The translations under genes were made by a program, and so were the position numbers. Below are positions 18,509-32,519 of a stretch of DNA of 32,659 nt, one piece after another (position 1 is the first letter of the stretch; each line of letters begins with the position of its first letter). Under the pieces are notes generated by a model, which was not told the DNA's origin, did not search any database, and saw nothing but the letters and a program-made list of their open reading frames with translations. Source of the DNA: Caryophanales bacterium (GTDB taxonomy: Bacteria > Bacillota > Bacilli > Paenibacillales > CANHCR01); the NCBI GenBank assembly GCA_947459205.1, contig CANHCR010000027.1:1-32659 (forward strand). Direction: 5' to 3'.

Positions 18509-19810
18509 ATGTTGATAAGATGGGTATTGATTGTTAGCTTGTTTTTAGTCGGCATCACAGGAAGTGCAAATGCAACGAGCGTAGGGAGCACACAGACTGC
18601 TAAACCAACCCCGAAAATCGGGCAATATGTCCAATTCGGTAGTTATTTATCAAAACCGGTTGTTTGGAGAGTGATCAACCTAGATGCCAACGGCAACCCG
18701 CTACTCTTTAGCGAATCCATATTGGCATTGAAAGCATTCGATGCGGCAGGTCCATTACATAATGATGCCGTGCGTAAGAAATTCGGCAGCAACTTGTATG
18801 AGCATTCTACATTGCGCAGATGGCTCAATTCTAATGATGTCGCGGTGACTTGGAAAAAGAACCTTCCGGCCCCGCAAAACTTCATGGACAAAAAGGGCGA
18901 CTACACGAAAGAACCGGGCTTTTTGTCAGCGACTAATTTTACGACGTGGGAACAATCTTTGATGGTGCCAACGACAAACCGCGTCATTCTCCATCATTCG
19001 GACCAGGTAATCAAAACGGGAGGCAACTCCTCGTTGCTTTTTGATGCGAAAATTTCATCGGCATTGCAAAATTATGACAAAAACGCTTTCTATCAACTGT
19101 TGTCTGATAAAGTGTTTTTGCTATCCGTCCAACAATTACATGCTTTCGTCTACAATCGCGGTTATGACATTCGCAGCAAACCAACATTGCAAGCAGTCAA
19201 CTCAAGTCCTGATCGTTATCCGGGTCTAAGTGCGAATGACTACTGGCATTATTGGTTGAATACACCGAACGGACAACATGCAGGTTCAACCCGTTTCGTG
19301 TTTTTTGACGGTATGGTGAATAAGCATTTTTCTTACAGTGAAGTGATTGGCGTCCGGCCAGCAACAGTTTTGGATATCCGCAAAGCCGCTATTTCCAGTG
19401 GCAGCGGATCGCTGAATTCTCCTTTTGTTGTCGGTCGCAGTGCACCTTCGGCGCCGGTTGTCTCACCAAAGAATGAGTTGACAATCAGTGGCAATCAGAT
19501 GTTTGTCAATCAAAAGCGAGTATCGCTTAGTGCCAATGTCAAACCGATCCGCATAAAGGGGCAGATGATGGTACCTGCAAGAGCCACACTGCAAGCAATG
19601 GGCTTGAACGTTTCTTGGAATGCGAATAGCAAATCAGTTGTTGCAACAAGAAAAGGGGTTTCGATGCAGTTCACGAATGGAAGAATAGCGGCCGTTGTCA
19701 ACGGGACTCCGAAAACAATGTCGGTGGCAGCAACGGACATCGGCGGAACCTTGATGGTACCCGCACAATTTATGACGCGCGAATTGAAATATTCGCTTAT
19801 TATTCGATAA
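18509..19810 (+). CDS. Exported DUF6273 plus copper-amine-oxidase-like stalk protein
   Basis: A 433-residue exported protein with a signal peptide (about 1-23). Residues 35-310 form a DUF6273 domain (GQYVQFGSYLSKPVVWRVI, then LLFSESIL, LRRWLN, and a later NDYWHYWLNTP and VIGVRPA), a fold of unknown role with C-type-lectin-like resemblance. Residues 325-433 form a copper amine oxidase N-terminal-like domain (IRIKGQMMVPARATLQAMG and GTLMVPAQFMTREL), the same stalk class as in the protein at 14567. It begins 13 bases after the dehydrogenase gene with GGAGG, so it is the fourth gene of the operon. The stalk domain is commonly found on Firmicutes surface proteins. No enzymatic function can be read. 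Confidence 0.8.
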   Translation: MLIRWVLIVSLFLVGITGSANATSVGSTQTAKPTPKIGQYVQFGSYLSKPVVWRVINLDANGNPLLFSESILALKAFDAAGPLHNDAVRKKFGSNLYEHSTLRRWLNSNDVAVTWKKNLPAPQNFMDKKGDYTKEPGFLSATNFTTWEQSLMVPTTNRVILHHSDQVIKTGGNSSLLFDAKISSALQNYDKNAFYQLLSDKVFLLSVQQLHAFVYNRGYDIRSKPTLQAVNSSPDRYPGLSANDYWHYWLNTPNGQHAGSTRFVFFDGMVNKHFSYSEVIGVRPATVLDIRKAAISSGSGSLNSPFVVGRSAPSAPVVSPKNELTISGNQMFVNQKRVSLSANVKPIRIKGQMMVPARATLQAMGLNVSWNANSKSVVATRKGVSMQFTNGRIAAVVNGTPKTMSVAATDIGGTLMVPAQFMTRELKYSLIIR

Positions 19811-19932: not shown

Positions 19933-22900
19933 ATGAGTAAGTCAAAGAAAATGGTTGCCTTGTGCCTCGCTTTTCTAATGATCTTTAATTTGGTCATGAT
20001 CCAAAGCGCGACTGCGACAACCACACCTTATTCCCACACGATTACACTGGATGGCAACAATGATTTTTATGGCAATGCAACGACGGAACGTTGGAAGAAT
20101 GAGACGTTCGCCACTTCCTCAGATGGGATGTTATCGTATATTACTTGGGATCAAGATCATATTTATCTTGCCTATCTGTCAGATGACATTCGCGGTAATC
20201 AAAGTGATGCGGCGAGCAAGTGGTTGCTCGCTTATTTTGGTGGCACAGGAGGTACAAAGACAGGCGTTAACTACGCTGGACAACAACCTTCACTGCCCTT
20301 TGACGCAAAATTCCATCTACGTTTTAAAGTGGATGGAAGTTACACGAACCTCCAAACTTGGAGCGGAACATCTTGGCAAAATGTAAAGAATTACAGTTGG
20401 GGTAGCAATGTTGCCCGCAATGACAGCAATAAATTTATTGAATTCAAAATTCCCAAAGCGGATATTGGATTGACGAATGCAAGCACCTTGCAGTACGTTT
20501 CGACTTTAGCTTTCGAGCATGCAGCTGACTTTGATTCGATGTGGGCGTCTGTCCCATCTGGATCGTTTGCGAATGGAAATGGTCGGGATCGTGATTTTTC
20601 ATCGTTTTATGAGTTTGATTTGAATTCGCTAAATACTGCGGCGGCGGCACAAATTTACAGTTATGATTTTAAGGATACTTCTGCCTCCCACAGTACGGCA
20701 AACTTCTCTTTGCGTGCAATGTCTGGAGCAACTGCGATTGCTGTTCAGCAATCAACAGATGGCGGAGCGACGTGGTCCGTTTCCAACATTTCTGAGGCAA
20801 CTCCTCTTACGCAGACAAGTAGTAATGTAGAAGTTACGGGTCTCACTCCGGACACCGCCTACAAATTTAGGCTCGTCACTACGGGCGGAGCGTTCGTAGG
20901 TTCTTCCGCAATTGTAAACTTGAAAACCTCGGCTGCACCGTTAGTGGATACAATCGCTCCAACAGCGCCAATCAGCTATAACATTACTAATCTGAAACAC
21001 AACAGTCTAACATTAAGCTGGGCTGCTTCAACGGATAACGTAGCCGTAACCAAGTATGAAATTTCACAGGACGGTGCCAAAATCGCTGAAGTGACTGGCG
21101 ATAAGATTTCGTATGCGATTACAGGGCTTAACGCATTGACTTCCTATTCGTTCACTGTTGCAGCATTAGATGCCGCTGGTAACAAGTCAGCACCAGGTGA
21201 AACAGTGGATATCACCACAACGGCTGCACCTGTAAACAACAATGTGACCATTTGGTACAAAAAAGGCTTTGCAACACCTCATGTTCACTATTCACCTGAA
21301 GGTGGAGCATGGACGACAGCACCTGGAACGGTGATTCCTGCATCTGAGATTGACGGTTACAACAAAATCGTAATCGACATCGGAACAGCAGACAAAATTA
21401 CAGCGGTGTTCAACGATGGCGGATTAAACTGGGATAATAACGACAGCAAAAATTATGTCTTCAATGCAGGTGTTTCGACGTTTATCCCAGGTGCCAATGG
21501 TGCGCCGGGAACCATCACTGCGGGTGCGCCTGCAGTAGATACAGAAGCGCCGAGCGCTCCGACTGGCTTGGTACAAAGTGAGTTGACGCAGAGCGGCTTC
21601 AAAGTGACGTGGACAGCATCGACTGACAACGTGGCGGTGACAGGCTATGAGATTTATCGCAATGATGCGAAAGTAGGGACTGTCGCAGGTGATGTAACGA
21701 CCTTCACGTTAACCGCCTTGACGCCGGAAACCACATACAGCATTACCGTGAAAGCAGTGGATGCAAAAGGTAACGTGTCTGCAGCAAGCAGCGTATTGAG
21801 CGTGACGACTGCAGCGGCGCCGCCGAGCAACAAAGTTACGATTTGGTACAAAAAAGGCTTTGCAACGCCATACGTCCACTACTCACCTGAGAGTGGGGTA
21901 TGGACGCTGGCGCCTGGCTTGGCAATCCCTGTATCTGAGATTGACGGCTACAACAAAATCGTGATCGACATTGGCACAGCGGACAAAATTACAGCGGTGT
22001 TCAACGATGGCGGACTAAACTGGGATAACAACGACAGCAAAAATTATGTCTTCAATGCAGGTGTTTCGACGTTTACCCCAGGTGCAGAGGGTGCGCCTGG
22101 AACCATAACTGCGGGTGCGCCTGTGGTAGATACAGAAGCGCCGAGCGCTCCGACTGGTTTGGTACAAAGTGAGTTGACGCACAGCGGCTTCAAGGTGACA
22201 TGGTCAGCATCGACAGACAACGTGGCGGTAACAGGCTACGAGATTTATCGCAATGATACGAAAATCGGCACTGTCGCAGGGGATGTAACAACATTCACGT
22301 TAGCGGCCTTGCCCCCGGAAACCACATACAGCATTACCGTGAAAGCAGTGGATGCAAAAGGTAACGTATCTGCAGCAAGCAGTGCATTGAGCGTGACGAC
22401 TGCAACGGCGCCGCCGAGCAACAAAGTTACGATTTGGTACAAAAAAGGCTTTGCAACGCCATACGTCCACTATTCACCTGAAGGTGGAGCATGGACGACA
22501 GCGCCTGGCTTGGCAATCCCTGCATCTGAGATTGACGGCTACAACAAAATCGTGATCGACATTGGCACAGCGGACAAAATTACAGCGGTGTTCAACGATG
22601 GCGGAGTAAACTGGGATAACAACGACAGCAAAAATTATGTCTTCAATGCGGGTGTTTCGACGTTTACCCCAGGTGCAGAGGGTGCGCCTGGAACCATCAC
22701 TTCGGGCGAACCAGTCATTGCTGATGTTGAATCGCCGAGTGTACCGACCACCCTTACTTCGACAGATATTACAGAGACTGGATTCACCGTTTCTTGGACT
22801 GCATCCATCGACAATATTGGCGTTACAGGGTACGAAGTATATTTAAATAATGTATTGATTACGACTGTCACTGGATTGAGTTATTCATTCACTGGATTAA

Positions 22901-24678
22901 CGGATGGCACGGCATATTCAGTCACAGTAAAAGCGATTGATGATGCAGGTAACAAATCTGAATCGTCGGACCCTATCAGCGTTACTACGATTGAGATTGA
23001 TGATGTCGCTCCAAGCGTTCCGCAAACGCTAAACTCTTCATCTGTAACAGCAAACAGTCTCGTTTTGAATTGGACGGCATCAACAGATAATGTTGCGGTT
23101 ACTTCTTATGAGATTTTCCAAGGTGCGGAATCAATTGGCACTTCTACTACCACAACATTTAATGTGACAAGTCTGACCTCAGGTTTGAACTACACATTCA
23201 CGGTAATAGCGTTCGATGCAGCAGGTAATAAGTCGGCTTCTAGCATTGCACACTCGGTACGCACTGTTGATAATGTTGCACCTACCGCTCCGCAGAATGT
23301 GGTAGCTGCTAATATTAGCGGATCTGGTTTCCGGATCACGTGGACCGCATCGACTGACAATGTGGGTGTAAGTTCGTATAATGTCTATCGAAATGGTGCA
23401 TTTGCTGGAACTGTAACGGGTACATCATTTTTGTTCTCGGGTTTGACGGTTGCAACAACGTATAACATTACCGTTTTGGCGCAAGATGCAGCGAAAAATC
23501 GTTCGCCATTAAGTACACCATTGGCTGTAACAACACTTGCTTCTCTCATTGATACAACGGCTCCATCGGTACCTATCGGTCTAAATGCAACGAACGTCGC
23601 GGTAACCAGCTTTACATTGAATTGGACTGCTTCGACGGACAATGTAGGTGTTACAAAATACGAAGTATATCGTGGTACGACATTCCTTGGTTCGCCGACG
23701 ACAACTTCATTCAATGTAACTTCACTCGTTTCCAACACAAGATATACAATGACAGTTTTAGCAGTAGATGCTGCGGGCAATAAATCTGCGGTCAGTACCG
23801 CATTAAGCGTGACAACATTGCCGTTCGTTGGCACGGATATTACGCCGCCGAATGTACCGACAGGTCTAGTCAGTAGAAATATCACTGAAACTGGCTTTAC
23901 TGTTGCTTGGCAAGCAGCGACTGACAATGCAGGGGTTACATCCTACAACGTATACAACGGTGGCAAATATGTCACAACCGTTTCCATCACTTCTTACACA
24001 TTTAGCGGACTGATCGCTGGAACGACATACAGCATTACGGTGATGGCATTGGATGCAGCAAAAAATCGTTCTCCATTAAGTGCGCCGCTTTCTGTTAAGA
24101 CTACGGGAACTACGCCGGTCTTAGACACAACAGCACCAACTGCACCAACGAATCTGGTTAGCAGTGCAGTCAGTACTACTGGATTCACAGTTTCATGGAC
24201 GGCATCAACTGATAATGTAGGTGTCACTGGATATAACGTTTACCGAGATGGAAAATATGTAGCGACAACAACGAGACTTACTTACACATTCAGTGGATTG
24301 CTTGCTAATACTACCTATAGTATTACTGTACTTGCAATGGACGCAGCGAAAAATCGTTCCGTACTGAGTGCACCGTTGTCGGTAAAAACTAATTTGGTTG
24401 CACCAGACTCGATTGCGCCGACTGCGCCAACTGGACTCGTCAGCAGTAACATTACAACCACTAGCTTTGTAGTCTCTTGGACACCTGCTACTGATAACAT
24501 CGGTGTAACAGATTACAATGTCTATCGCAACGGCACTTATTTGGCAACCATCAAAACAACGACGTACACGTTTACTGGACTGGTTTCGAACACCGCGTAC
24601 AACATCACGGTTCTAGCTTTGGATGCAGCGAGAAATCGTTCACCGTTAAGCGCTCCGTTGAGTGTGAAAACAAACTAA
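19933..24678 (+). CDS. Large secreted starch-binding multi-FN3 protein without a catalytic domain
   Basis: A 1581-residue exported protein. Order: signal peptide (1 to about 29, ending SATA); a CBM9/DOMON-like beta-sandwich (about 30-230); a diverged FN3-like domain (about 235-330); FN3 (340-430); three starch-binding modules of the CBM25/CBM26 type (about 437-534, 634-731, 831-925; each with VTIWYKKGFATP, VHYSPE and AVFNDGG.NWDNN) alternating with two FN3 domains; then seven FN3 domains to the C-terminus (about 933-1581). It ends in the last FN3 strand with no LPXTG, S-layer or other anchor. No glycosidase motif is present. The likely job is to bind starch or glycogen outside the cell, as a scaffold or adhesin; this is inference. 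ATG 19933 is chosen (AAGGAG 8 bases before) over the in-frame GTG 19924. It is preceded by a strong promoter and followed by a terminator, so it is probably monocistronic. Confidence 0.88.
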   Translation: MSKSKKMVALCLAFLMIFNLVMIQSATATTTPYSHTITLDGNNDFYGNATTERWKNETFATSSDGMLSYITWDQDHIYLAYLSDDIRGNQSDAASKWLLAYFGGTGGTKTGVNYAGQQPSLPFDAKFHLRFKVDGSYTNLQTWSGTSWQNVKNYSWGSNVARNDSNKFIEFKIPKADIGLTNASTLQYVSTLAFEHAADFDSMWASVPSGSFANGNGRDRDFSSFYEFDLNSLNTAAAAQIYSYDFKDTSASHSTANFSLRAMSGATAIAVQQSTDGGATWSVSNISEATPLTQTSSNVEVTGLTPDTAYKFRLVTTGGAFVGSSAIVNLKTSAAPLVDTIAPTAPISYNITNLKHNSLTLSWAASTDNVAVTKYEISQDGAKIAEVTGDKISYAITGLNALTSYSFTVAALDAAGNKSAPGETVDITTTAAPVNNNVTIWYKKGFATPHVHYSPEGGAWTTAPGTVIPASEIDGYNKIVIDIGTADKITAVFNDGGLNWDNNDSKNYVFNAGVSTFIPGANGAPGTITAGAPAVDTEAPSAPTGLVQSELTQSGFKVTWTASTDNVAVTGYEIYRNDAKVGTVAGDVTTFTLTALTPETTYSITVKAVDAKGNVSAASSVLSVTTAAAPPSNKVTIWYKKGFATPYVHYSPESGVWTLAPGLAIPVSEIDGYNKIVIDIGTADKITAVFNDGGLNWDNNDSKNYVFNAGVSTFTPGAEGAPGTITAGAPVVDTEAPSAPTGLVQSELTHSGFKVTWSASTDNVAVTGYEIYRNDTKIGTVAGDVTTFTLAALPPETTYSITVKAVDAKGNVSAASSALSVTTATAPPSNKVTIWYKKGFATPYVHYSPEGGAWTTAPGLAIPASEIDGYNKIVIDIGTADKITAVFNDGGVNWDNNDSKNYVFNAGVSTFTPGAEGAPGTITSGEPVIADVESPSVPTTLTSTDITETGFTVSWTASIDNIGVTGYEVYLNNVLITTVTGLSYSFTGLTDGTAYSVTVKAIDDAGNKSESSDPISVTTIEIDDVAPSVPQTLNSSSVTANSLVLNWTASTDNVAVTSYEIFQGAESIGTSTTTTFNVTSLTSGLNYTFTVIAFDAAGNKSASSIAHSVRTVDNVAPTAPQNVVAANISGSGFRITWTASTDNVGVSSYNVYRNGAFAGTVTGTSFLFSGLTVATTYNITVLAQDAAKNRSPLSTPLAVTTLASLIDTTAPSVPIGLNATNVAVTSFTLNWTASTDNVGVTKYEVYRGTTFLGSPTTTSFNVTSLVSNTRYTMTVLAVDAAGNKSAVSTALSVTTLPFVGTDITPPNVPTGLVSRNITETGFTVAWQAATDNAGVTSYNVYNGGKYVTTVSITSYTFSGLIAGTTYSITVMALDAAKNRSPLSAPLSVKTTGTTPVLDTTAPTAPTNLVSSAVSTTGFTVSWTASTDNVGVTGYNVYRDGKYVATTTRLTYTFSGLLANTTYSITVLAMDAAKNRSVLSAPLSVKTNLVAPDSIAPTAPTGLVSSNITTTSFVVSWTPATDNIGVTDYNVYRNGTYLATIKTTTYTFTGLVSNTAYNITVLALDAARNRSPLSAPLSVKTN
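21241..22707 (+). repeat. Tandem 591-bp repeat encoding starch-binding module plus FN3
   Basis: The CBM-FN3 unit recurs with an exact period of 591 bases (197 codons): unit A about 21241-21831, unit B about 21832-22422, and a third CBM alone at about 22423-22707. Units share long identical DNA stretches, with B and the third CBM especially close, indicating recent duplication or gene conversion. Confidence 0.85.
22729..24678 (+). repeat. Array of seven diverged FN3 repeats
   Basis: Seven consecutive FN3 domains of about 94 codons each, starting near 22729, 23008, 23275, 23557, 23842, 24124 and 24409. Each has an AP..P..L opening, a SW.A/TDN.GVT.Y central motif, and ends in LSV.T. Unlike the 591-bp units they are diverged at DNA level. 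Confidence 0.8.
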
Positions 24679-24703
24679 AATTTACAATCCGGTAAAGTAT
24701 TTT

Positions 24704-24740
24704 AGAGGCGCAACGAATTTTAGTTCGTTGCGTCTTTTTT
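24704..24740 (+). terminator. Rho-independent terminator after the FN3/CBM gene
   Basis: A 9-bp stem CGCAACGAA / TTCGTTGCG (24709-24717 with 24724-24732), extendable by G-T, G-C and A-T pairs, with a TTTTAG loop and a T run to 24740. Confidence 0.85.
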
Positions 24741-24823
24741 CAAAAAAACGAAATTTAAATGCAACTTTTTCGCTTGTTGAGCGTTTATTATTCAGCATTA
24801 TAAAAATCGAAAGGATGATCATC

Positions 24824-25522
24824 ATGTTGAAAAAAATGAAGTTGTCTCGTTTGATGATGTATGCAGCAATGTTAGTCCTCGTTTTATCGTTTGTTGTACC
24901 TGCTATGGCGCTTGCCGAGGAAGTAGAAGAACCTTTTACACCATTTATGGTTACCTCAATGCCAGTAGAATGCTTGCCACCTGTTGACCCTCCTGCAGTG
25001 GAAGATGGTGAATCTGGTTCAAGCGAAGGTAGCGAGCCAGCTTCGGTTGATAACGTAGCGATTGATAGCGCTGTTGAGGAAAATGAAGTGAAGCCTGATC
25101 CTGTAGATGAACCAACTGACAAACCGTCTGAAGAATGTATCAATTACATGTATGATACTCCGCCTACTGTTGAGTGTGAGGAAGGCCAAGATCAATGTAT
25201 TCAACCATACTACAGAACGACAACTGTTGGTGAAGATGGTGATATGATTAAAACGACATTAGCGGTTAATGACGAGGATGCCGATGCCTCAAACACTGAA
25301 TCTACGGAAGTGACTGACGTAGAAGCAGATGCAGAGGCGCTTGCAGCCCAATCTGGCTTGGCCGAAGGCACCGAAATGCTAGAAACTCGTGCATTATCTG
25401 TGACAGCTATGCCGAAAACAGGTAATGGTGGAGATGCAATCAATTATACTTGGATGGTTGCAGTTTCACTTGTAGCTTTGTTGGTAGCAGTGACTATGTA
25501 TCGTAGAAGACAGCAATCATAA
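24824..25522 (+). CDS. Acidic cell-wall-anchored protein with MPKTG sorting signal
   Basis: A 232-residue exported protein. A signal peptide (about 1-34, ending MALA) is followed by a strongly acidic, Pro/Ser/Glu/Asp-rich region with four cysteines (VECLPP, EECINY, VECEE and DQCIQ) and no recognised domain. The C-terminus is a sortase sorting signal: MPKTG (196-200, Met in place of Leu of LPXTG), a hydrophobic helix and RRRQQS. From motif to C-terminus is 37 residues, exactly as in the wall protein at 26353. ATG 24824 is preferred because AAAGG lies 9 bases before it; ATG 24815 in frame overlaps that site. It faces the sortase gene across a bidirectional terminator. Function unknown; a spacer, stalk or metal-binding surface protein is possible. 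Confidence 0.8.
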   Translation: MLKKMKLSRLMMYAAMLVLVLSFVVPAMALAEEVEEPFTPFMVTSMPVECLPPVDPPAVEDGESGSSEGSEPASVDNVAIDSAVEENEVKPDPVDEPTDKPSEECINYMYDTPPTVECEEGQDQCIQPYYRTTTVGEDGDMIKTTLAVNDEDADASNTESTEVTDVEADAEALAAQSGLAEGTEMLETRALSVTAMPKTGNGGDAINYTWMVAVSLVALLVAVTMYRRRQQS

Positions 25523-25540
25523 AGTACAATAGCAACGCAC

Positions 25541-25581
25541 AAAAAAGGAGTCGTTCAAAAATTTGAACCACTCCTTTTTTT
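25541..25581. terminator. Bidirectional terminator between the MPKTG protein and the sortase gene
   Basis: Inverted repeat AAAAAAGGAGT (25541-25551) with ACTCCTTTTTT (25570-25580), with an inner GTTCAAA / TTTGAAC pairing (25553-25559 with 25562-25568) and one C-C mismatch. A and T runs on either side let it act for both converging genes. Confidence 0.85.
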
Positions 25582-25602
25582 GCGGGCAAATATCCCTGTT
25601 AT

Positions 25603-26235
25603 TTATTTTTTAAGTTCGGTGAAAACGACGAGACGATCAATGTGTGTTCTCAATTTCGGATCAAAATATCCAGTGCATGTGATTAGATTCAGACGAGGCA
25701 CATTGGAATTGCCGAAAATGTAATCAATCGGGGCTTGTTCGGTACGATAGGTTTTTATCTTAGTGACCGAAAACGTCAGGTTTTTACCCGATTGATCTGA
25801 AACAACGACAAGGTCTCCGATTTTGACTCGATGAAGCGGGTGGAAGACGGCAACACCTTGCAAATTGTCGACATGGCCGGCCATCACGGCGCTCCCTTTT
25901 TCACCAGGTTTAAATCCAACCTCTAGCCATCCGACTTTCGTGTCATCTTTTGGAACGCCCATGGCTCCATTTTTCAGAACACCGACTGGTTGCACGAATG
26001 CATCGATGTTTACATTCGGGATTTGGATGCGCACCGGAATCAGTCCGGGTTGTCGCTCGACCAAAGGAGCGCTTTCCTTTGCATTCGGCGGTTTCGGCGG
26101 CGGAGTGATGACTTGTTCCTGCTCGTTCGCTGCGATTGCTTCGCGTTCGAGAACTTCTGCAGGACCCTCGCTACCCGCTAATAATAGCGAAAGGAGTGCG
26201 GCGCATAAAAGTAATTCTAGACTATAAGCCCTCAA
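25603..26235 (-). CDS. Sortase (class F/D-like)
   Basis: A 210-residue sortase encoded leftward. The N-terminal hydrophobic segment (about 5-21) is a type II membrane anchor, followed by a Pro-rich linker and the catalytic domain from about residue 66 (VRIQIPNVNIDAFVQPVG, VGWLEVGFKPGEKGSAV). The catalytic histidine is H121 in AGHVDN, the cysteine is C187 in LITCTGYFDP, and the arginine is R196 or R201 in LRTHIDRLVVF. The AGHVD and LITC.G.FD pattern resembles class F (and class D) sortases more than housekeeping SrtA. TTG 26235 is selected because AGGAGGTG lies 9 bases before it; an in-frame ATG at 26271 has no such site. It lies between two candidate substrates (MPKTG and LPDAG proteins), strongly suggesting it anchors them to peptidoglycan. 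Confidence 0.87.
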   Translation of the reverse strand: MRAYSLELLLCAALLSLLLAGSEGPAEVLEREAIAANEQEQVITPPPKPPNAKESAPLVERQPGLIPVRIQIPNVNIDAFVQPVGVLKNGAMGVPKDDTKVGWLEVGFKPGEKGSAVMAGHVDNLQGVAVFHPLHRVKIGDLVVVSDQSGKNLTFSVTKIKTYRTEQAPIDYIFGNSNVPRLNLITCTGYFDPKLRTHIDRLVVFTELKK

Positions 26236-26291
26236 TTTGACGCACCTCCTGCAATCATTGAACAGTCTCATTTTAACATAAAAAATATTGA

Positions 26292-26320
26292 TTGACAGTC
26301 TATCGAATGAACGGTAGTAT
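26292..26320 (+). promoter_or_regulatory. Putative promoter of the CBM41 wall protein gene
   Basis: A perfect -35 TTGACA at 26292-26297, a 17-base spacer and TAGTAT at 26315-26320 (4 of 6). It lies in the 117-base divergent region shared with the sortase gene. Confidence 0.55.
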
Positions 26321-26352
26321 CAAGTTAGAACCTTCTATAAGGAGAACGAATC

Positions 26353-26925
26353 ATGGAGTTAAAAGGTTGCAGCAAAGTGCTTTTTAGGTGTCTTACTGTA
26401 TTGCTTTTGCTCGTGATTACCGCGAATTTGCAGCAACCTGTCCAAGCGGCTTCTGCAGTTGATGTTACGATACATTATGTGCCGGCTCCTGGTGATGAGC
26501 GCGATTGGGATTTGTGGGTATGGACCAATAATCAAGATGGTGAAGCGTACTCTTTTCAACACGACGATCAAGGTGGAAAAGTGGCATCGTTTCAATTGCC
26601 CGCCCCAACAAAATCGCTAAATTATGTCGTTCGCTTACCTGATTGGAGCGCAAGAGATTGTGTATCGGAACGTAAACTAGAAGTGGTCGATGGTAAGGCA
26701 CAAGCATGGTTGAAAGGTGGAACATGCGATGTGAGCCTCGTCAACCCAAATCAGTCCGATGAAGCGGCGATGCAAGATCAACGCGATGAAGAGAAATTAG
26801 CGTTAAACGAATTGCCTGACGCGGGTTATGGCGGAGCATCTTTTGACATCACACCTACGCTAATCTGTTTTTTAATTGGACTCACAATCATTGCATATGC
26901 GCTGCGCAAACGAAAACTACAATGA
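26353..26925 (+). CDS. Wall-anchored CBM41/PUD (pullulanase-associated domain) protein with LPDAG signal
   Basis: A 190-residue exported protein: signal peptide (about 1-33, ending VQAAS), one pullulanase-associated domain (about 36-130: VTIHYVPAPGDERDWDLWVW, VRLPDWSARDC, and AWLKGGTCDV), a charged Gln/Asp/Glu linker, then a sorting signal LPDAG (154-158), a hydrophobic helix and RKRKLQ. CBM41/PUD modules bind alpha-1,4/1,6-glucans and normally precede a pullulanase catalytic domain; here the module stands alone and is tethered to the wall. The motif-to-end distance (37 residues) equals that of the MPKTG protein. ATG 26353 follows AAGGAG. It is divergent from the sortase gene, its likely anchoring enzyme. 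The role as a glucan-capturing surface receptor is inference. Confidence 0.85.
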   Translation: MELKGCSKVLFRCLTVLLLLVITANLQQPVQAASAVDVTIHYVPAPGDERDWDLWVWTNNQDGEAYSFQHDDQGGKVASFQLPAPTKSLNYVVRLPDWSARDCVSERKLEVVDGKAQAWLKGGTCDVSLVNPNQSDEAAMQDQRDEEKLALNELPDAGYGGASFDITPTLICFLIGLTIIAYALRKRKLQ

Positions 26926-26974
26926 ACCGCACATCTCTATTCGTCGCAAACGTATAATGATGGGCGGTTTTTTT
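26925..26974 (+). terminator. Rho-independent terminator after the CBM41 protein gene
   Basis: Stem AACCGC-CATC (26925-26935) with GATG-GCGGTT (26959-26969), one internal A-G mismatch, followed by a T run to 26974. The long loop contains a chance TATAAT. Confidence 0.65.
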
Positions 26975-27016
26975 ATTGATTCAGCCGATTCATAAATATG
27001 ATAGGGGGGTTTTACG

Positions 27017-27886
27017 ATGGTAGTTAAACTGTTTCAACCGAGCGAGGCGGCTTTTCTTTCTCCAAAGTTGCGATTCACCGATGCAAAAGTGAGAGAAACA
27101 CAGACGCTATTTAACGCTTCGCAAAATCAATTGAAAACAGCGTATCATGTCAGTCCACCCAAAGAAGATCCGTATCAGATTGTCATCAATGAACGTGCGC
27201 GTCTCAAAGTGCGAAAATTAGCGCAGTCTTTTGAAGATGCACAAAACGGAATGTTGCAGATGAAAATCGCTGCCACAGGGCTGAAGTCTGCACGAAACGT
27301 ATTGTTAGAGATGAGATCGTTGGCTCTAAAGGCGGCAGATGCCTCCACTGCTGATGGGGATCGCGTCGTGTTGAATACAAAGTTGTCTGAACTGCCTGCT
27401 GAACTTGATGAATTAGTCAATCGAATGAAATACAACCAAACGAAACTGATGGATGGCTCATTTTCTGCAAATTTTAAATTAGGGCGCTCAGCTCATTATC
27501 ATGTGAAGGTAAAAATAGATGATATGCGTTCAGTCGCACTTGAACTGAACTCATTGGATATCTCATCGAAGGCAGGTGCTGCATCTGCTTATACAAAAAT
27601 CGATGCTGCGCTTGAAAAATTGCAAGTCAATGTAGGCAGAGTGAAAGGGGCAGACAAAAAAATTGCCACTATTTTATCGACACGAACCAGTTTATCCGAG
27701 AGCATTTCCGACAATTCGGCGAACTTGCGAAATCGTAGCGCTGCCAGAGATATGATCGATATCATGAAAGTTCAGTTGTTACAACCAGATGCGACCGCAA
27801 TTTCACCTAAAGAGTTACACAAGACGAACAATCACACGGTACTGGATTTATTGGCAAATGCGATGGATTTACCGTTTCGATCGTAA
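27017..27886 (+). CDS. Orphan flagellin-like protein
   Basis: A 289-residue protein related to flagellin. The N-terminal D1-like helix pair is recognisable at about residues 54-145 (VINERARLKVRKLAQSFEDA, NGMLQMKIAATGLKSARNVL, EMRSLALKAADAST, DELVNRMKYNQTKLMDGSF), and the C-terminal D1/D0-like part from about 190 (YTKIDAALEKLQ, SISDNSANLRNRSAARDMIDIMKVQLL, then VLDLLANAMDL). It differs from true flagellins: the usual N-terminal INHN..AL stretch is replaced, the SGLRIN-like segment is degenerate (AYHVSPP), the variable region is minimal, and the C-terminus carries an extra tail. No signal peptide is present, consistent with flagellar-type export. No flagellar genes are nearby. ATG 27017 follows GGGGGG. 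It could be a minor filament or junction-like protein, or a repurposed one. Confidence 0.75.
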   Translation: MVVKLFQPSEAAFLSPKLRFTDAKVRETQTLFNASQNQLKTAYHVSPPKEDPYQIVINERARLKVRKLAQSFEDAQNGMLQMKIAATGLKSARNVLLEMRSLALKAADASTADGDRVVLNTKLSELPAELDELVNRMKYNQTKLMDGSFSANFKLGRSAHYHVKVKIDDMRSVALELNSLDISSKAGAASAYTKIDAALEKLQVNVGRVKGADKKIATILSTRTSLSESISDNSANLRNRSAARDMIDIMKVQLLQPDATAISPKELHKTNNHTVLDLLANAMDLPFRS

Positions 27887-27910
27887 GTAAGTTGATCATC
27901 ATACAAAACA

Positions 27911-27938
27911 AGGCCGCCCAATTGGACGGCCTATTTTT
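27911..27938. terminator. Bidirectional terminator between the flagellin-like and GH13 genes
   Basis: AGGCCG (27911-27916) pairs with CGGCCT (27927-27932) around an inner CCAATTGG, with one C-A mismatch, followed by TTTTT on the plus side and a TTGTTTTG stretch on the minus side. The two genes converge here. Confidence 0.8.
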
Positions 27939-27965
27939 GACTAGCTCACTTTCGTTTCTACCAGG

Positions 27966-30080
27966 CTACAAGTAGACGACAACCGCTTCGCCCGCTTTGA
28001 GCGAGAGGCGCAAGTTCCAATGTTCGTCAAAATCAAACGACTCATACTGCCCACTGTACAGCGAGTACTGAATCCAGGCACGACGCGAGGAGTTTCCAGA
28101 TTCGAAGCGCAGGTGACCAAGGTTAACGGTGAATGTACGATTGTGCGACAAATCCGTGTTGCCGACGACAAGCAACAAGTTGTCATGGCTCATCCAGCGA
28201 CGATTTTCGATGATGAAGCCGAAGCCGATAGCTGGTGTGCGCCAGTCATCAAAATGGAGCGGGAACGTACTGTTTCCGTCGGTTACGGCGAAAATGTGAC
28301 GTCTGCGAATGGCAGCCACTTGCTCGATCACTTCCGGCAACACCCAACGTTGCGGGTTTGTCCAATGTAGTTGATATTTTTCGAAAAATGCCAACTTGCC
28401 ATTGTACGGATCGTTCGGGTGCAAACGCCATGCTTCATCTGGTGCGCAATCAATTCCAGTGTTCATCGGTTGCGTTTCGAACAACTCAATCCCCGAGTTG
28501 AAAAACGGCACGCCGTTCGGCATGAAGTGGTTGAGCACGGTCAACAACTTCGAGAGTGCTTGACCACCATGACGTGCTGCCAAACGCGGCGTATCCGGCG
28601 TCTCTCCGCAAGCGAACACCGGTGCGGCGTAGTGCAGTCCTTCGTAGAAAAATTCATGTGTTTTGAATTCGAACATGCGCGGCTGGCAGAAATAACCGTC
28701 GCCAAGAATCATGTTGTATCCGGCGTTGCGTGCAGACCACGCATTTTTCACTTCCACTTCTTCTGCAATCAAAGCGAAGTCAGGATCGATTTGACGCGGA
28801 CGGTCGATGATCATCCCAACAAGTTCTTCCGGCAAAGCGTGTCCCATATCGATGCGCGCGCCGTCGATCCCGAATTGCTCTTGATAGAACGGAATGACGC
28901 CCGACAACGTCTGCCACAACTCCTCGTTGCGCACCGCACCCTTGAACATGTTGGCTTTGATGACATCGAACAAAATGTAAGGCTTAATGTCGTTGTGTCC
29001 GATGTAGTGCTGCGAAGCGAGCGGATGATCGAGATATAGTCGCAAGAACGTGATATCAGACCATGGCGGTTGCGGATCATTGACACCATCGGAAAATGCT
29101 GGCGCCGTCGTAATACCATATTCTTGGCTGATCAACTCGAACACTTCGAGCGACGGATCAGCGGCAACACGCTTTTTGATAGACTGCCATTTTTGCGGAT
29201 CGAGAATGTCCGGCGAATTGACGAACTTACGCATGTGATCCCATACTTCACCAGAATTATAAATCAGGTGCAAGTTGTCAAAAGTCGGCTTGTCAGCCGC
29301 TTTAATCCCATGCACGAACGGTGGCTTGTACTCTGGCAAGCGGTCCTCATACACCCAATAAAACCAGTCTGGATGGTCTAAAATCAAGTGGCTGTCGCGC
29401 GCCGCCGTCCGCGGGATGATGTCGATCAACACGCGAATGTTCATGATGTGACACGCCTCGACAAACGCACCGAACTCGTCTTCGACAGTGAAATCTTCGG
29501 ACGTCATCGAATCTTTCAGATTCGGATCCAATTTGAAAAAGTCTTTGACCGCGTAAGGCGAACCCATGCCGCCTTTTTTGAAGTTGTCACTATACTGCGA
29601 AATCGGTAACAAATAAATCGCTGTAATGCCCATTCGTTTGAGCAACGGCAGAAGCGCAATCGATTTTACGAATGTGCCGGTCTCTTTAAGGCCGTACTCA
29701 TTTTCCGACTCCAACTCGCCGCTTTCATTGTGGTCCCACGAAGTCGAGGTGCGCACATGCATCGAATAAATTGAACTTTTGCGAATCCAATCGCCGCCCA
29801 TGTAGCCGTATTGTTGCTGGTCATCATTGCCGTGAATTTGCGTAATCGACTGACTGTAATCAACGTCCGCTTGATATCCATCCGCGAGCACATAGTCGAT
29901 GGCAGCATGATAGAACTTGTACGGATTGACTTGCAGTTGTCCGTCTTCGCGAACGAGCAAGTCTTTCCCTTTGTACTGAAAACAGTTCCACATGTCGGGA
30001 ACGGTGTAATGCATTTTTTTGCGCGATGCCGTTTTCTTTTTTAACTGCTCCTTCAATTGAAGCAACTTTGACGTTTTCAT
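27966..30080 (-). CDS. Cytosolic GH13 alpha-amylase-family enzyme (GlgE-like features)
   Basis: A 704-residue glycoside hydrolase family 13 protein, encoded leftward. The barrel begins near MGITAIYLLPIS; key positions are the nucleophile D411 in GARIDMGHALP, the general acid/base E440 (or E441) in LIAEEVE, and the transition-state aspartate D496 in GETPDTPR. Having Pro rather than His before that last aspartate is like GlgE maltosyltransferases (NTPD) and unlike most amylases (NHD). The C-terminal beta domain ends the protein. No signal peptide: it begins MKTSKLLQLKEQL, so it acts in the cytoplasm on glycogen or imported glucans. ATG 30080 follows GGGAGG by 8 bases; an in-frame ATG at 30113 precedes that site. 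The exact reaction (hydrolase, transferase or maltosyl-phosphate use) is not determinable here. It is divergent from the MoxR gene. Confidence 0.83.
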   Translation of the reverse strand: MKTSKLLQLKEQLKKKTASRKKMHYTVPDMWNCFQYKGKDLLVREDGQLQVNPYKFYHAAIDYVLADGYQADVDYSQSITQIHGNDDQQQYGYMGGDWIRKSSIYSMHVRTSTSWDHNESGELESENEYGLKETGTFVKSIALLPLLKRMGITAIYLLPISQYSDNFKKGGMGSPYAVKDFFKLDPNLKDSMTSEDFTVEDEFGAFVEACHIMNIRVLIDIIPRTAARDSHLILDHPDWFYWVYEDRLPEYKPPFVHGIKAADKPTFDNLHLIYNSGEVWDHMRKFVNSPDILDPQKWQSIKKRVAADPSLEVFELISQEYGITTAPAFSDGVNDPQPPWSDITFLRLYLDHPLASQHYIGHNDIKPYILFDVIKANMFKGAVRNEELWQTLSGVIPFYQEQFGIDGARIDMGHALPEELVGMIIDRPRQIDPDFALIAEEVEVKNAWSARNAGYNMILGDGYFCQPRMFEFKTHEFFYEGLHYAAPVFACGETPDTPRLAARHGGQALSKLLTVLNHFMPNGVPFFNSGIELFETQPMNTGIDCAPDEAWRLHPNDPYNGKLAFFEKYQLHWTNPQRWVLPEVIEQVAAIRRRHIFAVTDGNSTFPLHFDDWRTPAIGFGFIIENRRWMSHDNLLLVVGNTDLSHNRTFTVNLGHLRFESGNSSRRAWIQYSLYSGQYESFDFDEHWNLRLSLKAGEAVVVYL

Positions 30081-30233
30081 TGAAACGTCCTCCCTTCGAG
30101 GCACATAAGACAATCATATGTATTATACGAAAAAAAAAAGTGTAAGAAAAGTAGAGATTTGTTACTAGATTTTATTTTTCACGGTATATTAGCGAGTCAA
30201 GGCCTATTCCATGAAACGACAGGAGGAATTTTT

Positions 30234-31307
30234 TTGAGTATTGCTACTGTGACCCCGAATCAAGTGGTAGAGTTGCTGACACCGATTTATGCCAAAACGT
30301 CGCCACGCGAGGTGCCAACCGTCATGCTATGGGGGCAACCTGGCATCGGCAAATCTGATGCTGTCCACTTGCTGGCCGAGCATTTGCAACGCGTCACCGG
30401 CAAAACAGTGGAATTGACGGACGTCCGTTTGTTGCTTTTCAACCCGATTGACTTGCGTGGGATTCCGGTTGTGAACAGCGAGAAAGAATTTGCCGTTTGG
30501 CTGAAGCCGAAAATTTTTGATTTTCCTCAAGACGACGAACATCTGCATATTTTATTTCTAGACGAAATCTCTGCTGCGCCGCCATCTGTGCAAGCTGCTG
30601 CATTTCAGCTGACATTGGACCGCAAAATCGGCGAGCACGATTTGCCCGATAATGTGATTGTGATTGCAGCTGGTAACCGCATGCAGGACAAAGGTGTGAC
30701 GTTCCGTATGCCGACACCGCTTGCGAACCGCATGACCCATTTGGAAGTGATTGCGCAATTTGATGATTGGAAAAAATGGGCGCTCAACAATCAGATTCAT
30801 GAATGGGTGGTTGGCTTTTTAGGTTTTCAAACGGACTTATTCAACAAATTCGATCCCGTCAATGACAGCACCGCATTTCCGACTCCGCGCTCTTGGAGTT
30901 TTGTCAGCAAATACTTGTATTTGTATGACAGTTTGGAGGATGCCATGCCGATGATTACGGGCTCGGTAGGCGAAGAGGCTGCCAGCGAATTTGCTCATTA
31001 TGCCACCAACCATATGGACTTGCCTGTAGTCGATGAGATTGTCGCAGGCAAAACCGTGCAAATCGACAATTCAAAAATTGATATCGTCTATGCAATTTGC
31101 AGTGCGCTTGCGATCCGTGCCCGTAATTTTAGCGACGAACAATTGGAAAATGTGATGCACTTTTTGCTCGGCGACACACTGGCGCGAGAGTATGTGATCA
31201 TGACGACGAAAGACATGTTGCGCAACGGCATCGTCAAGCAACGTGTCAAAGCACTGCCGCGCTTTAGCGAGTTTCTCAGCAATTACGGAAAAACATTATT
31301 AGTTTAA
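30234..31307 (+). CDS. MoxR-family AAA+ ATPase
   Basis: A 357-residue AAA+ ATPase. Walker A is WGQPGIGKSDA, Walker B is ILFLDEIS, and the sensor region is IVIAAGNRMQDKG followed by PTPLANRMTH. This MoxR-type pattern is typical of ATPases encoded next to a VWA-domain partner, with proposed chaperone-like roles in protein or metal-cofactor assembly. TTG 30234 is chosen because AGGAGG is 7 to 8 bases before it; a longer reading frame to 30159 has no such site. The next gene (HExxH/VWA-like) begins 15 bases downstream, so they form an operon. Confidence 0.87.
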   Translation: MSIATVTPNQVVELLTPIYAKTSPREVPTVMLWGQPGIGKSDAVHLLAEHLQRVTGKTVELTDVRLLLFNPIDLRGIPVVNSEKEFAVWLKPKIFDFPQDDEHLHILFLDEISAAPPSVQAAAFQLTLDRKIGEHDLPDNVIVIAAGNRMQDKGVTFRMPTPLANRMTHLEVIAQFDDWKKWALNNQIHEWVVGFLGFQTDLFNKFDPVNDSTAFPTPRSWSFVSKYLYLYDSLEDAMPMITGSVGEEAASEFAHYATNHMDLPVVDEIVAGKTVQIDNSKIDIVYAICSALAIRARNFSDEQLENVMHFLLGDTLAREYVIMTTKDMLRNGIVKQRVKALPRFSEFLSNYGKTLLV

Positions 31308-31322
31308 TGGAGGTGACGGTTC

Positions 31323-32519
31323 ATGGCCATTCGACAACGGCAAAGGCACAAGCAACTTTCTGCACAAGAACGGCTCGAACATTCCCGCATTCAGCTCATT
31401 TTGGACTTTCCGTTCTTTGGCTTTTTAGCTATGCATCTGAAATTGGTAGAAACGAACAAGACCAAAACGGCTTCTACCAACGGCAAGGAATATGGCTACA
31501 ATCCGCAGTTTATTCAAACGCTCAACGATAAAGAATTGAATTTTCTTACCGCGCACGAAGTTCTCCATGCCGCACTCGGTCATCCTTGGCGTGTACGTGG
31601 GCGCAATCCCGTCATTTTCAACATCGCAGCCGATTTTGTGGTAAATGCAATGATCATCCAGTTCGATCCAAATGGCGAGGCTTTTCAGATGCCTGCGCAT
31701 GGGTTGTACGATCCGCAGTTTGCCCATCTCTCAGTTGAGGAACTATATGACTTGTTCATGAGTGATAAAAGCGACGAGTATCGTTTGAAAAAGTTGAAAA
31801 AGATGTCGATTTTGGACGATCACAAGGATTGGAACGAATCGGACTTGCATGAATCTGCTTTGTCGCGCGAGATTTGGCGCAAGCGTCTGCAAGGGGCCGC
31901 CTACAAATCGAAGGGTGGCAGTTTGCCGGCATCCGTGGTACGCGAACTCGCCAGTGACAAGGTGGCCAAAAAAGATTGGCGTCAACTACTTGCCGAGATG
32001 GTGCAACACGAAGTCGTCGATTACGGATTCACTCCGCCTGACTACAGATACCAAGGCTCCGAATTTGTCTTGCCTGGCTTCTCGGAAACGGAAGCCGTCG
32101 TCAAAAACGTGGTATTTGCAATCGACACATCTGGTTCGATTGATGACGAATTGTTGAGTCTTTTTCTAGCGGAAGTGATTGGTTGCCTCAAGCAATTCAA
32201 CGACAAAGTAAAAGGGACGCTCATCTATTGCGATAACAAGGTGCGCGCCGTGTGCGATGTGCATGATGCGCAGAACTCGACTCCGGTGGGTGGTTCCGGC
32301 ACTTCGTTTGTCCCCGTCTTTGATTGGATTGAGCAGAATTTGCAGGAATGCGCCGGTTTGGTCTATTTGACGGACGGGTACGGCACGTTCCCAGAGCGAG
32401 CACCATATTACCCAGTGTTATGGTTACTGACTGATGCGGACGAAGAATGGAGTGAAGGTGAACCGCCACCATTTGGCAACTCAGCGATGATGGAAAGGGA
32501 GGCAAAAAAATGTCAATAA
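31323..32519 (+). CDS. DUF2201-type putative metallopeptidase with VWA-like domain
   Basis: A 398-residue protein in two parts. The N-terminal part (about 1-200) has a zincin-like motif HEVLHAALGH (H78, E79, H82), as in DUF2201 N-terminal domains. The C-terminal part has a VWA-like fold with the metal-binding motif DTSGS at 268-272, a later GGSGTSF and a LTDGYG. Such proteins pair with MoxR ATPases; the VWA domain is thought to bind the target or ATPase through a metal ion. Whether the HExxH is proteolytic is unknown. ATG 31323 follows GGAGGTGA. The stop overlaps the next gene by 10 bases, completing a three-gene operon with the MoxR protein. Confidence 0.87.
   Translation: MAIRQRQRHKQLSAQERLEHSRIQLILDFPFFGFLAMHLKLVETNKTKTASTNGKEYGYNPQFIQTLNDKELNFLTAHEVLHAALGHPWRVRGRNPVIFNIAADFVVNAMIIQFDPNGEAFQMPAHGLYDPQFAHLSVEELYDLFMSDKSDEYRLKKLKKMSILDDHKDWNESDLHESALSREIWRKRLQGAAYKSKGGSLPASVVRELASDKVAKKDWRQLLAEMVQHEVVDYGFTPPDYRYQGSEFVLPGFSETEAVVKNVVFAIDTSGSIDDELLSLFLAEVIGCLKQFNDKVKGTLIYCDNKVRAVCDVHDAQNSTPVGGSGTSFVPVFDWIEQNLQECAGLVYLTDGYGTFPERAPYYPVLWLLTDADEEWSEGEPPPFGNSAMMEREAKKCQ

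Follow-up and report, generated by a model that had tools for sequence, protein, structure and literature searches.

Does the region between positions 19933 and 30080 of the window (the whole stretch of DNA analysed here, 32,659 nt) encode a surface system for capturing alpha-glucans that has its own sortase? An earlier note, made from the letters of the DNA, proposed such a system from five genes, and all five are present. For the two outermost genes, the starts at 19933, where an AAGGAG ribosome-binding site precedes the ATG, and at 30080 offer better start codons than those of the longest ORFs (19924 and 30113). The features of the locus are as follows.

18509-19810, plus strand: upstream secreted protein with DUF6273 and Cu_amine_oxidN1 (stalk) domains (Pfam)
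19933-24678, plus strand: predicted secreted alpha-glucan-binding protein with a signal peptide, a CBM9-like N-terminal domain, ten Fn3 domains and three CBM25 modules (Pfam)
20008-20667, plus strand: N-terminal domain of the CBM25 protein, a predicted CBM9/DOMON-like beta-sandwich (AlphaFold, Foldseek)
21241-21540, plus strand: CBM25 module 1 (PF03423, aa 440-539)
21832-22131, plus strand: CBM25 module 2 (PF03423, aa 637-736)
22423-22722, plus strand: CBM25 module 3 (PF03423, aa 834-933; PDB-level homology)
24824-25522, plus strand: sortase substrate 1, a secreted acidic protein ending MPKTGNGG-TM-RRRQQS (motif at 25409)
25541-25580, no strand: inverted repeat of 19 bp (A6...T6), resembling a bidirectional terminator, between the convergent substrate 1 and sortase genes
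25603-26271, minus strand: class-F-like sortase with an N-terminal TM anchor (PF04203, 70.9 bits)
26353-26925, plus strand: probable sortase substrate 2, with a signal peptide, a CBM41/PUD domain and the ending LPDAGYGGAS-TM-RKRKLQ (motif at 26812)
27966-30080, minus strand: cytosolic GH13 maltosyltransferase homologue without a signal peptide (1GJU/1GJW)

Because the genes lie on mixed strands, they are not one operon, and the grouping of all five into a single unit is not supported. The terminator-like palindrome lies between substrate 1 and the sortase, and a promoter scan stayed at the shuffled background (22 versus 21.4) and therefore gives no evidence for an operon. A flagellin-N-like gene (27017-27886), absent from the earlier list, also lies within the span. 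The protein at 18509-19810 is a possible associate of the locus; several amylases of the same genome end in a C-terminal stretch that matches it. Genome searches in the genus and family returned the window's own genome as the sole member. The co-occurrence in related genomes that the earlier note looked to was found only in part: the link between sortase and starch genes is not conserved, whereas the N-terminal module of the CBM25 protein does keep company with maltosyltransferase or amylases. Across relatives, the only recurring adjacency is that between the CBM9-like-module protein and the maltosyltransferase.

The alpha-glucan theme of the locus is sound because the genome, that of a Paenibacillales-like alpha-glucan specialist, has about 18 GH13 proteins in 2.5 Mb, several of them giant and secreted. 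The CBM25 and CBM41 domains match solved starch-binding modules. The cytosolic GH13 enzyme can be named more precisely than before. Its GH13 match in Pfam is weak (30.7 bits), but against the maltosyltransferase of T. maritima (1GJU) it scores 511 bits (E = 4e-152) over residues 25-612, a full-length homology of 588 residues in which the active-site motifs of regions II-IV are kept (GARIDMGHA, IAEEVEV and ETPDTPR); its activity is a prediction. The enzyme is a widely scattered maltosyltransferase, with relatives mainly in Bacilli MAGs, Thermotogae and Paenibacillaceae. In the neighbourhoods of 68 such relatives a PUD protein turned up once and a sortase or CBM9-like module never, and the maltosyltransferase alone is therefore no marker of the system.

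The sortase is intact and lies between two motif-bearing proteins, as originally described. Its catalytic triad (H133, C199 and R213) is invariant in 30 homologues, and a genome-wide search identified it as the only sortase of the genome, which is 99.45% complete. We call it class-F-like because the class F model NF033748 scores best among all classes (125.3 bits) yet under its cut-off of 166. Substrate 1 has the signal peptide, MPKTG motif, TM segment and basic tail (RRRQQS) of a sortase-anchored protein and exceeds the TIGR01167 cut-off (16.6 versus 15.9 bits), which bears out its earlier designation as a sortase substrate. It contains 44 D/E, 13 K/R and 4 Cys residues, with no Pfam match or known domain. 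In substrate 2, the CBM41/PUD domain is well above the gathering score (PF03714, 48.6 bits against 25), is 36% identical to T. maritima CBM41 (2J71, E = 2e-17), and retains the tryptophans of WxLWxW. Of the claim that this protein is wall-anchored, the CBM41 domain, TM segment and basic tail stand, but the LPDAG motif has Ala in the Thr position.

Neither MPKTG nor LPDAG is an LPXTG motif, and their shared extension is rare. At the DNA level, [LMIVF]Px[TA]GxGG has four matches in 2.52 Mb (two in the reversed control), two of which are the substrates on either side of the sortase; we put the probability of two background matches within the 3 kb around the sortase at ~3e-6. The other two (on C30 and C62) fall inside housekeeping-like ORFs, an acyltransferase and a pseudouridine synthase as judged by eye, and are not C-terminal signals, and the TIGR01167 matches elsewhere in the genome have no LPXTG-like motif. 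As a C-terminal signal, [LM]Px[TA]GxGG thus occurs genome-wide in only two proteins, both beside the sortase. A stricter pattern, [..]PxTGxGGx[S]E, is found in 30 of 300 genomes of the order (reversed control, 6 matches), and in 26 of those 30 it lies, once per genome, within a few hundred bp of a sortase orthologue, tying the motif to this sortase clade.

In the relatives examined, the usual partner of the sortase is a small secreted protein that ends in [LM]PxTGxGGxSE and has no membrane tail, and most of the sortases are predicted lipoproteins. Two of the genomes with the nearest homologues (G149 and G210, 43-49% identity) share the window's layout, with a TM-anchored sortase adjoining a secreted protein that ends AMPKTG[ML]GG-TM-RRK, and we count this as support for the pairing of sortase and substrate. 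No CBM25, PUD or GH13 gene was found near the sortase orthologue in the 20 relatives examined. The sortase module is a general Paenibacillales device with a passenger that differs by lineage, and its pairing with CBM41 appears specific to the lineage of the window. Our literature search found no paper joining class F sortases and Paenibacillus, and the combination in the window, together with the unusual sortase family behind it, looks undescribed, though its parts are of known kinds. Tentatively, at a little under even odds, we propose an undescribed Paenibacillales sortase pathway in which a class-F-like sortase serves one dedicated neighbouring substrate with the signal [LM]PxTGxGGxSE but without a membrane tail, passengers are swapped between lineages, the window holds the starch-display version, and a new family of CBM9-like modules linked to alpha-glucans occurs alongside. 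The passengers of this proposed pathway are, by lineage, His/Lys-rich, lamin-tail, CBM9-like and CBM41.

The CBM25 protein matches its earlier description as a secreted, non-catalytic protein with three starch-binding modules. Pfam detects three copies of CBM25 above the gathering score (PF03423, 303.6 bits) and ten Fn3 domains (PF00041) but no catalytic domain, and the CBM25 modules are close to 2LAB and 2LAA of a beta/alpha-amylase (134 bits to 2LAB). A match to the NCBIfam model 'exoglucanase CbhB' is far under cut-off and probably stems from the Fn3 repeats. The N-terminal domain has no sequence match in Pfam or the PDB, and eight copies occur elsewhere in the same genome. Its AlphaFold model (pLDDT 87.7, from a 12-sequence alignment) has CBM9 as the top Foldseek match (1I82, E = 1.2e-4). 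The likeness to CBM9 (1I82, 7NWO) is of fold only, with a TM-score of about 0.45-0.5 at 10-13% identity and no match to the Pfam CBM9_1 model (PF06452), and the genomic context of the domain is alpha-glucan rather than xylan or cellulose. The module is present in three other genomes and adjoins alpha-glucan enzymes in each: in G011 its gene is 313 bp from a maltosyltransferase 64% identical to that of the window, and in G375 and G041 its neighbours are amylases with CBM53 or CBM25.

The CBM25 protein has no sorting signal, SLH domain or C-terminal TM segment, its one hydrophobic stretch being N-terminal, and it could be a degraded amylase or scaffold fragment that has lost a catalytic domain or an SLH anchor. 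A sister protein in the same genome (L239) carries the same modules and retains three SLH domains, and the remaining CBM25 arrays of the genome sit on GH13 enzymes. However, an open frame of ~1,580 aa, a regular module order and a signal peptide make degradation improbable, and the SLH-anchored sister is likewise non-catalytic, so that non-catalytic binders are a kind that already exists in this genome. More serious, if still doubtful, is the possibility that the CBM41 protein belongs to the membrane and not the wall, with LPDAG a decayed signal and the TM segment its anchor; without sortase action, that segment would hold it in the membrane. A Thr-to-Ala change abolished anchoring of AbpA by SrtB in oral streptococci (PMC4974636), a precedent from a different sortase class; the genome G252 encodes a PUD-TM protein of 157 aa that has no sorting motif; and the TM-anchored PUD pullulanase of the window's own genome ends in a plain TM segment. 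Yet the CBM41 gene flanks the sortase, and its GYGGAS closely matches the GYGGVS and GFGGAS of the clade, which would not be expected of an unrelated TM protein.

The neighbourhood could also be a product of chance, with a general sortase and its substrates lying among starch genes in a genome full of them, the sortase, CBM25 protein and maltosyltransferase having separate roles and the CBM41 substrate being the sole true overlap. Several transcription units, the non-starch neighbours of the sortase in the 20 relatives, and the number of GH13 proteins, which raises the odds of starch neighbours, all favour this account. It is nonetheless unlikely, as it is the sortase substrate that carries the CBM41 domain, making at least one link between sortase and starch physical, and the CBM9-like-module protein and maltosyltransferase are adjacent in G011 too.

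We favour, with a probability of roughly 0.55, a surface alpha-glucan-binding locus in which a general one-sortase module has been re-used in this lineage to display CBM41. A starch "hook" is probably exposed on the cell surface, because the only sortase sits between the only two recognisable substrates, one of them a bare starch-binding domain. Against this reading stand the unanchored CBM25 protein, the mixed strands, the absence of a sortase-starch link in the 20 relatives, and the Ala of LPDAG. We infer three things: both proteins are processed by the sortase, the domains bind starch, and the proteins work together. The sortase would most likely recognise [LM]Px[TA]GxGG and link both the acidic, spacer-like protein and the bare CBM41 protein to the cell wall, where CBM41 could hold branched alpha-glucan (pullulan, amylopectin or glycogen fragments). 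The CBM9-like/CBM25/Fn3 protein would also bind starch, non-catalytically and at a separate location, and may link granules non-covalently to cells or to enzymes. The many secreted amylases and the TM-anchored pullulanase would cut the polymer, and the maltosyltransferase would then rearrange imported maltodextrins.

One of the nearest known arrangements is in Bacillus cellulosilyticus, a polysaccharide-degrading member of the Bacillales, where sortase-dependent wall display is known for starch proteins that carry CBM41 (PMC3617157). There, class D sortases, an LPXTA signal and 27 anchor proteins are involved and the CBM41 proteins are GH13 amylases, whereas in the window the sortase is class-F-like, the signal is [LM]Px[TA]GxGG, there are two substrates and CBM41 comes without an enzyme. 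AbpA and SrtB likewise pair one accessory sortase with one adjoining dedicated substrate, and the AbpA signal (LPKTS-AVK) lacks a TM segment and charged tail, as in the Paenibacillus relatives of the window sortase (PMC4974636). However, SrtB is a class B sortase, AbpA has the motif LPKTS and binds salivary amylase, and the window substrates do carry TM tails. The locus also works like amylosome and Sus-type systems, with non-catalytic surface starch binders beside secreted amylases; we do not class it with them, and no cohesin or dockerin was found in the window or in nine large secreted proteins of its genome, and no SusC/D in the proteins scanned.

If true, a starch-binding domain held on the wall with no enzyme attached, through the one sortase of the genome, would give Gram-positive bacteria a simple equivalent of the surface glycan-binding proteins known from gut Bacteroidetes. 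The sortase clade raises the question of how substrates stay in place when, as in most of its members, the signal is missing the membrane tail that is commonly regarded as necessary. It offers a minimal, motif-defined pairing of sortase and substrate that might find use in protein labelling.

An earlier note had joined five genes at 19933-30080 into one candidate alpha-glucan capture-and-display system with its own sortase. The window is an entire 32.7-kb contig of a 2.52 Mb genome (99.45% complete), the sole species of its genus and family among the genomes searched; its order is probably Paenibacillales, judging by gene content and size of the relatives. Each of the five genes is found in the window:

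19933-24678, forward strand: CBM25 protein with three CBM25 and ten Fn3 modules; its N-terminal CBM9-like domain is at 20008-20667.
24824-25522, forward strand: substrate 1, with the C terminus MPKTGNGG, a hydrophobic stretch and RRRQQS.
25603-26271, reverse strand: sortase with an intact His-Cys-Arg triad.
26353-26925, forward strand: CBM41 protein (PUD domain), with the C terminus LPDAGYGG, a hydrophobic stretch and RKRKLQ.
27966-30080, reverse strand: homologue of the Thermotoga maritima maltosyltransferase.

The genes of this span are not all on one strand, and between substrate 1 and the convergent sortase gene lies a 19-bp palindrome of an A-run and a T-run. The five therefore do not form a single operon, and their grouping as one unit is not supported. 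A flagellin-N-like gene (27017-27886), encoding a protein with an unusual N terminus, also lies in the span, between the CBM41 and maltosyltransferase genes. The maltosyltransferase gene is followed by an AAA ATPase and DUF2201/VWA pair (30159-32519); two further such pairs flank an amylase with five CBM25 modules on contig C48 (stretch L181, 259-2541 and 13341-15000).

The sortase, the only one in the genome, scores best with the class F model, yet below that model's cut-off. A genome-wide DNA pattern search for [LMIVF]Px[TA]GxGG gave four matches, against two for the reversed control pattern; two of the four are the substrates flanking the sortase, and the other two lie inside open reading frames resembling housekeeping genes. 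The chance of two background matches beside the sortase is estimated at ~3e-6. The sortase was matched in 62 of 300 genomes of the order, ~40 of them strongly, and a stricter pattern (the extended motif ending in x[S]E) occurs in 30 genomes, directly beside the sortase orthologue in 26 (one per genome), which confirms the sorting signal. Among the nearest homologues, G149 and G210 have the same arrangement as the window: a transmembrane-anchored sortase adjoins an AMPKTG[ML]GG protein with a transmembrane stretch. All 26 remaining pattern-matching proteins, each a secreted substrate adjoining the sortase orthologue in a Paenibacillaceae-like genome, end 11-14 residues past the motif start, at [LM]PxTGxGG[AVI]SE(Q..), with no transmembrane tail (pairs in L114-L116, L120-L129 and L196-L223); their sortases are mostly lipoprotein-like, with a lipobox. 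From the motif search and these orthologues, the sortase and the extended motif belong together. A divergent sortase copy (L131, G166:C54) is found near a VPKTGDGS protein with a transmembrane stretch, on a contig that resembles a mobile element and has relaxase-like and TraG-like genes.

The CBM41 domain best matches T. maritima CBM41 (2J71) and conserves the WxLWxW tryptophans. The protein's sorting-signal layout also stands, but LPDAG has Ala for Thr, which casts some doubt on the proposed wall anchoring; the GYGGAS context fits the sortase's extended motif despite this substitution.

The CBM25 modules closely resemble 2LAB/2LAA, which are solved starch-binding modules (134 bits), and a domain search detected no catalytic domain in their protein, which agrees with its description as non-catalytic. 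No anchor was seen, and the protein cannot be called sortase-displayed. Neither Pfam nor the PDB holds a sequence that matches its N-terminal domain. Twelve copies were aligned, and a confident AlphaFold model (pLDDT 87.7) best matches CBM9 modules among solved structures, at a TM-score of about 0.45-0.5 that indicates a shared fold class, not close kinship. Of 399 order genomes only four, the window's among them, have this domain. In all three others its carrier adjoins alpha-glucan enzymes: a maltosyltransferase 64% identical to the window's in G011, and CBM53 and CBM25 amylases in G375 and G041. These neighbours place the CBM25 protein in one theme with the maltosyltransferase. The window's genome also fuses the domain to a GH66 (dextranase-family) enzyme and to a subtilase. 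This ~220-aa domain, without a Pfam entry, occurs with GH66, subtilase, CBM25 or SLH domains, in giant secreted proteins adjoining alpha-glucan enzymes (20008-20667, L235-L237 and L239-L242).

The alpha-glucan theme holds genome-wide. Alpha-amylase domains matched 28 times, in ~18 proteins; several of these are secreted giants that also contain CBM25, CBM26, Fn3 or stalk-like domains. The genome further encodes a PUD pullulanase that has a transmembrane stretch at its C terminus, and an SLH-anchored non-catalytic protein of two CBM9-like, three CBM25 and thirteen Fn3 modules. The maltosyltransferase homologue lacks a signal peptide, consistent with the cytosolic GH13 enzyme described before. 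G011 encodes another non-catalytic CBM41 protein, secreted, of 595 aa with five PUD domains (L192, 9276-11063), between genes for a GH15/CBM25 enzyme and a hybrid histidine kinase.

Conservation of the sortase-starch neighbourhood did not hold up: no CBM25, PUD or GH13 lies near the sortase in any of 20 relatives (neighbourhoods up to 17 kb each), and maltosyltransferase relatives are scattered over Bacilli MAGs, Thermotogae and Paenibacillaceae without other parts of the locus. Therefore, this sortase module is a general one, and its pairing with starch proteins belongs to the window's lineage. Its usual partner in relatives is a His/Lys-rich small protein or a lamin-tail protein, with a CBM9-like protein in two genomes; tail-less substrates with a CBM9_1 domain in two genomes of one genus (L198, L200) indicate that carbohydrate-binding passengers recur with this sortase.

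Sortase-displayed CBM41 is not new, since class D sortases anchor CBM41 amylases in B. cellulosilyticus (PMC3617157). In contrast, the window has a bare CBM41 and a lone class-F-like sortase, a new variation. For the Paenibacillaceae-like pairs the nearest precedent is AbpA/SrtB, which shares a sorting signal without a transmembrane tail (PMC4974636), making the Paenibacillales tail-less pairs a second case. These pairs are apparently undescribed, as a literature search found no paper on them, which is not proof of absence.

Most likely, the sortase would link both the acidic substrate 1 and the CBM41 protein to the cell wall, CBM41 would keep alpha-glucan close to the cell, secreted amylases would cleave the glucan held there, and imported maltodextrins would be reworked by the cytosolic maltosyltransferase. 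From the observed genes, domains, residues, uniqueness and context, we infer LPDAG cleavage, glucan binding and cooperation of the proteins. The chief doubt is the Thr-to-Ala change in LPDAG, a change that abolished anchoring in AbpA/SrtB (PMC4974636). If it blocks anchoring here too, the CBM41 protein would remain in the membrane, still at the cell surface.
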